The notes beneath the pieces are model-generated. The model saw only the letters and a program-made list of their open reading frames with translations, was not told the DNA's origin and did not search any database. Positions 36,024-38,300 of a stretch of 64,000 nucleotides of DNA are shown piece by piece. The stretch lies in NCBI GenBank assembly GCA_025062195.1, contig JANXAS010000003.1, forward strand, positions 39,025 through 103,024, in the 5' to 3' direction. The position numbers and the translations under genes are program-made. The DNA comes from Armatimonadota bacterium. Lineage in GTDB: Bacteria > Armatimonadota > Fervidibacteria > Fervidibacterales > Thermosaccharophagaceae. The stretch's first letter is position 1. Each line of letters begins with the position of its first letter.

Positions 36024-36227
36024 TTACTTTCCACCGAGCAGTGTCGCAAGCCATCCTCCAATAAACCAACCAATAAGCGCAAAGAACCCCATTGACACGA
36101 TGGGGTTAGCAATTATGCCTCACGGCAATGTTCCACCCTTACATGCGCTGAGCCTGTAGAGCACAAATCCAATGACAGCGCCAATGAGCGCCATGACGAT
36201 GCTTATAAGGTTCAGCATCCTTAGCAT
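36024..36227 (-). CDS. Candidate selenoprotein: small two-TM DUF6132-like protein with in-frame TGA (Sec?) at 36120-36122
   Basis: Translation MLRMLNLISIVMALIGAVIGFVLYRLSACKGGTLP(TGA)GIIANPIVSMGFFALIGWFIGGWLATLLGGK; directly follows the PGI/PMI stop codon; TGA aligns with the Cys of the remembered CPIxxNP family motif; hairpin immediately downstream. Confidence 0.6.
36085..36107 (-). promoter_or_regulatory. Candidate bacterial SECIS stem-loop
   Basis: AACCCCAT-CGTGTCA-ATGGGGTT: perfect 8 bp stem, 7-nt loop with G at the second loop position, stem begins 12 nt after the TGA. Confidence 0.55.
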
Positions 36228-36231
36228 CACC

Positions 36232-37341
36232 TCACATTTGCAGGCTTGCTTTAAGGTAGTCAATGTTGATGATGGCAGTTGGGTCAACACGGTTTAAAAG
36301 GGCAAGATAGTAGGAGACGAAATCACCGAGCATGACCATTTGGAGAATTTCACTAAGTGGATGCTTTACAGCATCAATGCTAACTTGCTCGCATTGCATC
36401 CCGCAGTTCGTTAGAAGCTTTGCAACAATGTCTTCTCGCAGTTTGTTCCTTTGATGCGAGAACGCAGAGCGCAGTATAATCACAAACATTATCTCACCCA
36501 ACTGGCTTGGGTGTTCAAAGCCGACAATTGTATTGTGGCACATCTCTGGTAACTCCTCAAAGAAGCACGCTGTGTTTGCGTTTTCGTTCATCTGTGTCTT
36601 CCAACGCCTTGCCACCGCTGTCAATGGTGCTGAGGCGAGTATAAGACCAACTCGTCCATGAATTCGCATTGCAAGTTGCTTTGCCCTGTTTGACTCAGAT
36701 GGCACATCCGCATCCAGTTTCTGTCGGAGCTTATGCAAATCATAAATAGCCTCGCTGATTATGTTGTCATCAAGTTCATACAATCCAAGGGCATTCATCA
36801 ATGCCAAAATCGGCGTGAGCAGAAAGCCAAGAGAAGCCCTCGGTGGTGCATCGCTTTCATACCTGTAATATTGCACTTTGAATTTTTGGGCAAGTTCAAT
36901 CAGCCTGCCGCCACTTGCTATCGCGAATATTGTTGCGCCCCTTCTGCGTGCTTCCTCAAAGCCATTGATTATCTCCTCGGTATCTCCGGAGTGCGAGACA
37001 GCTACGACAAGAGACGAACTGTTAACACAAGCAGGCACACCATAATCACGGTGCACGATGATTGGTATCTTGGCTGCATCATGGGTAAGTGAACGAGCTA
37101 TGTCACCACCTATTGCGCTCCCTCCCATGCCAAGGATGACCATGTTACTCGGATTAATTCTGGGCAGCTCATGCATCTCATGAATTTGTCTCCATGCTGT
37201 TTCAATCTGCGCCGGCAAGCTCCGTATGTGTCCAAGCATGTCGCTTACATCTATCAGTTCACGATACAGAGGGTCATCAAGCACACCTATCATTTCCATC
37301 ACCCCGAGAGTTGCGAATTTGCTGTGCTGCAGCTTATTCAT
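36232..37341 (-). CDS. Bifunctional phosphoglucose/phosphomannose isomerase (SIS domain)
   Basis: NMVILGMGGSAIGGDIARSL, PIIVHRDYGVPACVNSSSLVVAVSHSGDTEEIINGFEEARRRGATIFAIASGG, KTQMNENANTACFFEELPEMCHNTIVGF. Confidence 0.93.
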   Translation of the reverse strand: MNKLQHSKFATLGVMEMIGVLDDPLYRELIDVSDMLGHIRSLPAQIETAWRQIHEMHELPRINPSNMVILGMGGSAIGGDIARSLTHDAAKIPIIVHRDYGVPACVNSSSLVVAVSHSGDTEEIINGFEEARRRGATIFAIASGGRLIELAQKFKVQYYRYESDAPPRASLGFLLTPILALMNALGLYELDDNIISEAIYDLHKLRQKLDADVPSESNRAKQLAMRIHGRVGLILASAPLTAVARRWKTQMNENANTACFFEELPEMCHNTIVGFEHPSQLGEIMFVIILRSAFSHQRNKLREDIVAKLLTNCGMQCEQVSIDAVKHPLSEILQMVMLGDFVSYYLALLNRVDPTAIINIDYLKASLQM

Positions 37342-38300
37342 TGTTTGCTCCCTTTGTGTTGGATGCATTCCACTGGCTTGCCGGAGCGCAAGTTTCCAAA
37401 GCAGCCCTCGTTGCAATATCGGCACGCAATTATCTCGCCCAGGCGCCCCTCAATTGTCTTTTGCACCCATTGTGGGTCGGCAATTAGCCCCCTTCCTATC
37501 GCGATTAAATCGGCACGCCCCTCACGCAATGCTTCAACTGCACGCTCGTGTATGCCCATCATGCCAACAGCTATAACTGGCACATTAAGTGCTCGCTTAA
37601 ACGGCTCCGCTAAATCCCCGGGGCGATTCTCACTTGCTGGAGAGATGTCAAGCACATCAACGCCAGCTTTTATCAGGTTCTGGCAAAGGGTCAAGCTCTC
37701 GTCAATCGTGTAACCATTGCTCTCCTTTGGCGTATGCCGATAAAGCAAGATCATTTCGCCACCGATTTCGGAGCGTATTGCGTTTGCGATTTCCAACGCA
37801 AGGCGCATCCTGTTTTCAATGCTCCCACCATACTCATCCGTGCGCCTGTTTGATTTAGGTGAAAAGAACTGGTTCAGCAAAAAGCCGTGAGCACCATGCG
37901 GCTCAACGCCATCAAAGCCAGCCTCTTTGCAAACTGCTGCTGCACGCTTGAACCTATCAATGCTCAGCCTTATGTCTTCAATCGTAAAAGCGTTGGGGTT
38001 ATTACGACCATCAACTGGCGACATAAAAAGCTGTATGGCAATCGCGGCACCCTCAGCCTTTACAGCTTCAACCAACCTCTTTAGCCCATCAACTTTTATG
38101 TCCTCACCGATGCGTGCAGTTTGTGTTGCCTCAACTATCACCAGACCAACACCACCATTGGCTATACGCCTATACCACTCAATTCCATCATCTGTGGTTA
38201 TGCCCCTGTTAGTCACCATTGGTGGACAGACAATCCGATTGCGAAGCATCATGTGCTTCACTTTAAATGGCTCAAACAATATATCATACTCACTCGCCAT
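37338..38300 (-). CDS. NADH:flavin oxidoreductase (old yellow enzyme family, Fe-S type)
   Basis: LRNRIVCPPMVTNRG, GFDGVEPHGAHGFLLNQFFSPKSNRRTDEYGGSIENRMRLALEI, IGRGLIADPQW, C-terminal CRYCNEGCFGNLRSGKPVECIQH cluster motif. Confidence 0.93.
   Translation of the reverse strand: MASEYDILFEPFKVKHMMLRNRIVCPPMVTNRGITTDDGIEWYRRIANGGVGLVIVEATQTARIGEDIKVDGLKRLVEAVKAEGAAIAIQLFMSPVDGRNNPNAFTIEDIRLSIDRFKRAAAVCKEAGFDGVEPHGAHGFLLNQFFSPKSNRRTDEYGGSIENRMRLALEIANAIRSEIGGEMILLYRHTPKESNGYTIDESLTLCQNLIKAGVDVLDISPASENRPGDLAEPFKRALNVPVIAVGMMGIHERAVEALREGRADLIAIGRGLIADPQWVQKTIEGRLGEIIACRYCNEGCFGNLRSGKPVECIQHKGSKQ

Follow-up and report, generated by a model that had tools for sequence, protein, structure and literature searches.

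A DUF6132-like membrane protein gene with an in-frame TGA and evidence for an apparently uncatalogued selenoprotein family in Armatimonadota

Bacterial selenoproteins catalogued to date share a UGA codon read as selenocysteine (Sec), a SECIS hairpin of published geometry, the SelA/SelB/SelD/tRNA-Sec machinery and the existence of homologues with Cys (PMC13188914). The bacterial SECIS model used there has a loop of 3-9 nt, a stem of 4-16 bp, a spacing of 16-37 nt from the TGA, a G as first or second loop nucleotide, often followed by G or U, and a minimum free energy of -7.5 or lower (PMC13188914). The catalogue also includes membrane proteins with Sec in the position of a functional Cys, i.e. 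the Sec-containing MerT-like (PF02411) and YeeE/YedE (PF04143) proteins (PMC13188914). The Pfam family DUF6132 (PF19628) is of unknown function; its members resemble the proteins described here in size, in their two helices and in the connecting loop, where a single conserved Cys column precedes xxxNP. However, in our family this Cys column is occupied by selenocysteine in 59 genomes, and most Armatimonadota members remain below the Pfam cut-off. The family has the coding features of catalogued bacterial selenoproteins, but it is not listed among them, lacks an NCBIfam model and does not have a thioredoxin fold. With the MerT-like and YeeE/YedE proteins it shares the membrane location and the Sec at a functional Cys position, whereas there is no sequence match to those models and both motif and gene neighbours differ.

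The gene in question is located on the minus strand of the window, i.e. the whole stretch of 64,000 nucleotides that was analysed, at 36024..36218. It encodes a two-helix DUF6132-like membrane protein of approximately 63 residues with one in-frame TGA at 36122-36120, which we read as selenocysteine, and ends with TAA at 36026-36024; the order of the frame is MLRMLNLISIVMALIGAVIGFVLYRLSACKGGTLP-TGA-GIIANPIVSMGFFALIGWFIGGWLATLLGGK-TAA. The original prediction had described frame, TGA, flanking sequence, hairpin and stop, and all of them were found where it had placed them. Of the gene span proposed there, 36024-36227, the end was confirmed, whereas for the translation start we favour the ATG at 36218 over the alternative ATG at 36227. 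This inference was drawn because a Shine-Dalgarno-like GAGGTG (36228..36233, minus strand) is separated by 9 nt from the former but has no spacer to the latter; accordingly numbered, Sec would be residue 33 (ATG 36218) or residue 36 (ATG 36227). The putative ribosome binding site overlaps the stop of the upstream gene, which is of the bact-PGI_C type (phosphoglucose/phosphomannose isomerase; 36232..37425, minus strand; Pfam PF10432, 147 bits). The two genes are probably co-transcribed without an evident functional link. Standard gene-finders overlook the selenoprotein gene because its in-frame TGA looks like a stop. Further upstream, an ORF for an Old-yellow-enzyme-type flavin oxidoreductase (37338-38300, minus strand; Oxidored_FMN, 196 bits) extends with its end about 88 nt past the GTG listed as start of the PGI-type gene, the true start of which probably lies further in.

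The SECIS-like hairpin of the window, AACCCCAU-CGUGUCA-AUGGGGUU (36085..36107, minus strand), begins after a gap of 12 nt from the TGA and consists of a perfect 8-bp stem (36107-36100 with 36092-36085) closed by a 7-nt loop (36099-36093), which starts 20 nt after the TGA. With G as second loop nucleotide and a predicted energy of -9.9 kcal/mol it satisfies the published bacterial model (PMC13188914), and the SECIS geometry claimed in the original prediction thus holds. Taken alone, the hairpin deviates only slightly from expectation (P about 0.025 compared to synonymous recodings). Folding of the whole stretch gave no excess (z -0.55). The Rfam model SECIS_1 had no match anywhere, the controls included, and is therefore uninformative. 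We nevertheless judge the hairpin to be beyond chance, because homologues share the TGA column and an independently built profile matches the frame, as outlined in the following.

A single-protein scan of genome contigs found no relative, and a search with a TSNP-type alignment returned only two contigs, both from Armatimonadota. A homologue that belongs to another family of the same order carries TGA at the same codon. An eight-sequence profile was run over 291 Armatimonadota genomes and matched in 85, which were reduced to 77 family carriers after reading of the loci; the survey of Sec forms covers this phylum only, and the contig titles of two matching genomes name it explicitly (Armatimonadetes, Candidatus Zipacnadia). 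Exactly one column holds TGA in 59 of these genomes and a Cys codon (TGC/TGT) in the other 18. Random stops elsewhere in the orthologues would have refuted the original prediction; none of the 77 matches contains a stop apart from the one TGA, and an assembly error for TGC/TGT cannot explain a TGA that occurs in 59 genomes. Typical Sec loops read GST-U-GILCNP, GGG-U-PMTSNP and GSS-U-INCRQP, typical loops of the Cys form GGG-C-PLTCNP and GSV-C-INSRIP. A profile built without the order of the window matched the window frame at E 3.1e-10 when 927 window frames were searched with TGA read as Cys; this was the only convincing match, the next best reaching E 0.096. Because this match is independent of the window's own order, we assign the window protein to the family and its TGA to the Cys column, which agrees with the Cys-to-Sec substitution proposed at the outset. 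What had been put forward as a single candidate is hence supported as a member of a phylum-wide family.

AlphaFold modelling (3 sequences, pLDDT 73) predicts helices at residues 2-26 and 39-62, joined by a loop that contains Sec33. All but two of the 59 Sec forms have a Cys no more than 7 residues from Sec. In these 57, Sec+4 (22) and Sec+3 (17) are the commonest positions, and the others fall at Sec-3 to Sec-7; the window protein has its Cys at Sec-7. The relationship to DUF6132, which was also part of the original prediction, could be upheld only indirectly. The window protein itself has no match to PF19628 up to E 10 and does not reach the gathering score of 23.2 bits, and this is why we speak of a DUF6132-like protein. 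However, some Sec members pass this threshold with Sec read as Cys, among them the homologue of G253 (31.7 bits), and the profile that includes such intermediates but leaves out the order of the window finds the window frame at E 3.1e-10. Other homologues gave 13-19 bits or nothing, and the Pfam model alone recovers few family members. Five weak DUF6132 matches (L019, L020, L025, L028 and L029) were rejected as unrelated frames.

The claim also depends on Sec machinery in the host, and its genome (3.4 Mb in 170 contigs) was found to contain all components: SelA (581 bits), SelB (422 bits, in a 667-aa ORF), tRNA-Sec (73.8 bits; classified by ARAGORN as SeC with anticodon TCA) and SelD (364 bits), the gene of which has a TGA in frame at the position of the catalytic residue (...ASG-U-ASK...). 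Judged by this gene content, the host can insert selenocysteine. Its other genes are ordinary long ORFs in which TGA serves as stop, and the formate dehydrogenase-like gene that was found has no in-frame TGA. The host selD gene (L066; C140:7808-8743 of its own genome, minus strand) is itself a selenoprotein gene, in which the TGA is followed by a GCCC-GGU-GGGC hairpin with the loop 18 nt downstream, a SECIS style like that in the relatives of the new family.

Across the phylum, SelA was detected in 55 of 59 TGA genomes but in only 2 of the 18 with Cys (Fisher 5e-11, a value inflated by the relatedness of the genomes). The four TGA genomes without SelA match, three of which are incomplete, all have tRNA-Sec (72-80 bits); either SelA or a strong tRNA-Sec is thus present in 59/59 TGA genomes, whereas SelA is missing from 16/18 Cys genomes. 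The comparison shows Cys in place of Sec in lineages that, by their gene content, lack the Sec system. The tree of the family protein, which rests on 58 columns and is therefore coarse, requires about seven changes between Sec and Cys, at least four of them forced by well-supported branches. The exceptions with a Cys form, G192 (L057; SelA and tRNA-Sec) and G124 (L082; SelA), suggest that Sec was lost from the family protein while the Sec system was retained. Separately, 85 of the 142 SelA-bearing Armatimonadota genomes have no family member detectable with the profile used; their Sec systems must be maintained by other selenoproteins, unless more divergent family members escaped the search.

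Hairpins after the TGA are a further common property of the Sec forms. Within genome families f14/f15, which form the largest clade, all 25 genes that can be compared directly have a five-pair stem like CCGGC-GGU-GCCGG, with GUU, GGC and GGG as alternative loops, and in each the distance from TGA to loop is exactly 20 nt. The stem overlaps the codons for Pro-Ala-Val-Pro, and these codons are frozen: Pro at Sec+6 is encoded by CCG in all 25 genes, CCG making up 36% of Pro codons in the flanking ORFs, and with amino acids and local codon usage as given, such a stem has a mean chance of 3.6% per gene. A compensatory change, CCGGU-GGU-ACCGG, occurs in two genes, and three more genes of the clade realise the same device with other sequences (GGGCAC-GGUC-GUGCCC, CCAGUG-GGUC-CACUGG and GCACC-GUG-GGUGC). 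Among Cys homologues the pairing is lost, each of the five positions being paired in only 4-6 of 10. Genomes G001-G003, which share the order of the window, have the hairpin GCCCC-GUN-GGGGC at a distance of 18 nt from the TGA. The clades with CNP motif show a longer predicted hairpin, GCAACCC...GGGUUGC, with its loop about 30 nt from the TGA; in genus g92 the consensus is predicted at -22.7 kcal/mol. RNAalifold returned little on the pooled CNP-motif clades and a clear long hairpin on single ones. We give this structure less weight, because it is partly fixed by the protein sequence and persists in part in two Cys relatives. By its energy alone, the hairpin is a weak discriminator between TGA and Cys genes. 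Nevertheless, the codon patterns indicate that the hairpins of the homologues are maintained by codon choice at a fixed distance after the TGA.

The gene neighbourhoods of several homologues contain redox genes. Of the 9 genomes of genus g92, 8 have a thioredoxin gene (Pfam E 3e-31) as immediate upstream neighbour on the same strand; G229, from another family, has one with a lipoprotein-like signal in this place. A TlpA/AhpC-type thioredoxin-like gene follows in G041, an OsmC gene in G223, G224 and G228, and the Cys form of G191 has a gene resembling thioredoxin reductase in its vicinity. The neighbours of the window gene itself are not redox genes, and the sugar-phosphate isomerase upstream gives no functional hint. 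The most frequent f15 neighbour is HemW-like (radical SAM): in 12 genomes, with Sec as well as Cys forms (e.g. G101, G138 and G153-G155; L103, L106, L096, L104 and L097), such a gene comes next downstream in the same orientation, which has no clear meaning. In G254 (L017) and G253 (L018), the selenoprotein gene is flanked by a ClpB-like gene on one side and the groES operon on the other, with a CIRCE-like inverted repeat (TTAGCACT...AGTGCTAA) and then the GroES-like gene about 60-100 nt downstream.

How the TGA is decoded could be explained differently. It might be a true stop, or the gene might be decaying, with the downstream frame a chance or dead extension; this would be the standard meaning of the codon, and the window hairpin by itself is not strong. 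However, such a reading is hardly reconcilable with a TGA kept at one column throughout the family, with a conserved second helix behind it and no other stop, with changes downstream of the TGA that are mostly synonymous between close pairs, and with Cys homologues that read straight through; we regard it as highly improbable. The same very low likelihood is given to a read-through of UGA as Cys or Trp by a suppressor or a reassigned codon. The homologous residue is indeed Cys in genomes without Sec machinery, but the TGA form tracks SelA and tRNA-Sec, is accompanied by SECIS-like hairpins with GGU or GU loops, and occurs in a host that otherwise uses TGA to end ordinary long ORFs. Hence, on comparative evidence and in the absence of protein-level data, it is nearly certain that the window gene encodes a selenoprotein, the UGA of which would be decoded with the aid of a short SECIS hairpin that SelB recognises.

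What the selenoprotein does is far less clear. The thioredoxin, TlpA-type and OsmC genes that adjoin several homologues suggest a membrane thiol/selenol redox role, and we consider a function together with thioredoxin-like partners to be an inference for and against which the arguments weigh about equally; it is unproven. The protein would sit in the membrane as a helical hairpin (the topology is inferred) with Sec in the connecting loop, where it would usually be paired with a cysteine 3-7 residues away and could undergo selenenyl-sulphide exchange. Thiol/selenol exchange with partners of the thioredoxin, TlpA or OsmC type may then pass reducing equivalents at or across the membrane, with neither substrate nor electron direction being shown. 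Alternatively, the selenoprotein could act in the transport of ions, metals or sulphur compounds, like the Cys relays of MerF/MerT or YeeE, instead of exchanging with thioredoxin. A small two-helix membrane protein with a reactive Sec or Cys in its loop would fit such a task, Sec-containing proteins of the MerT-like and YeeE-like kinds do exist, and near the G041 homologue lies an MBL-fold gene that we presume to resemble persulphide dioxygenases. Yet the family matches no Mer or YeeE model, and transport genes do not recur among the neighbours of its homologues; we therefore see transport as possible though rather unlikely. Returning to thiol/selenol exchange, the more far-reaching picture of an undescribed family, early or ancestral in Armatimonadota, whose minimal two-helix membrane selenol proteins exchange reducing equivalents between proteins of thioredoxin type and the membrane, can only be offered tentatively and with some doubt.

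The family was not found in the 2026 catalogue (PMC13188914) or among the families newly described in the 2025 deep-Sep paper, and ten representatives matched no NCBIfam model, hence none of its named selenoprotein models. Our literature search found no mention of DUF6132 as a protein family or of PF19628 (one text match was unrelated) and none of Armatimonadota together with selenocysteine, although unvalidated candidates of a 2026 groundwater survey may overlap. The family is thus apparently new, and taken as a whole the observations are, in our view with good confidence, best explained by an uncatalogued phylum-wide selenoprotein family of Armatimonadota with SECIS-aided decoding of UGA as Sec and an inferred membrane redox role. 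It appears to extend the 119 catalogued prokaryotic selenoprotein families and subfamilies by one, in a phylum whose selenoproteins are hardly touched on in the literature searched. It also provides a lead on DUF6132: evolution has placed selenium exactly at the loop Cys, and because it occurs at precisely that residue, the loop Cys is likely the reactive centre of these proteins. If the redox reading is true, this would be the first functional lead on DUF6132, and the paired Sec and Cys orthologues offer material with which the contribution of selenium to a membrane protein could be tested.
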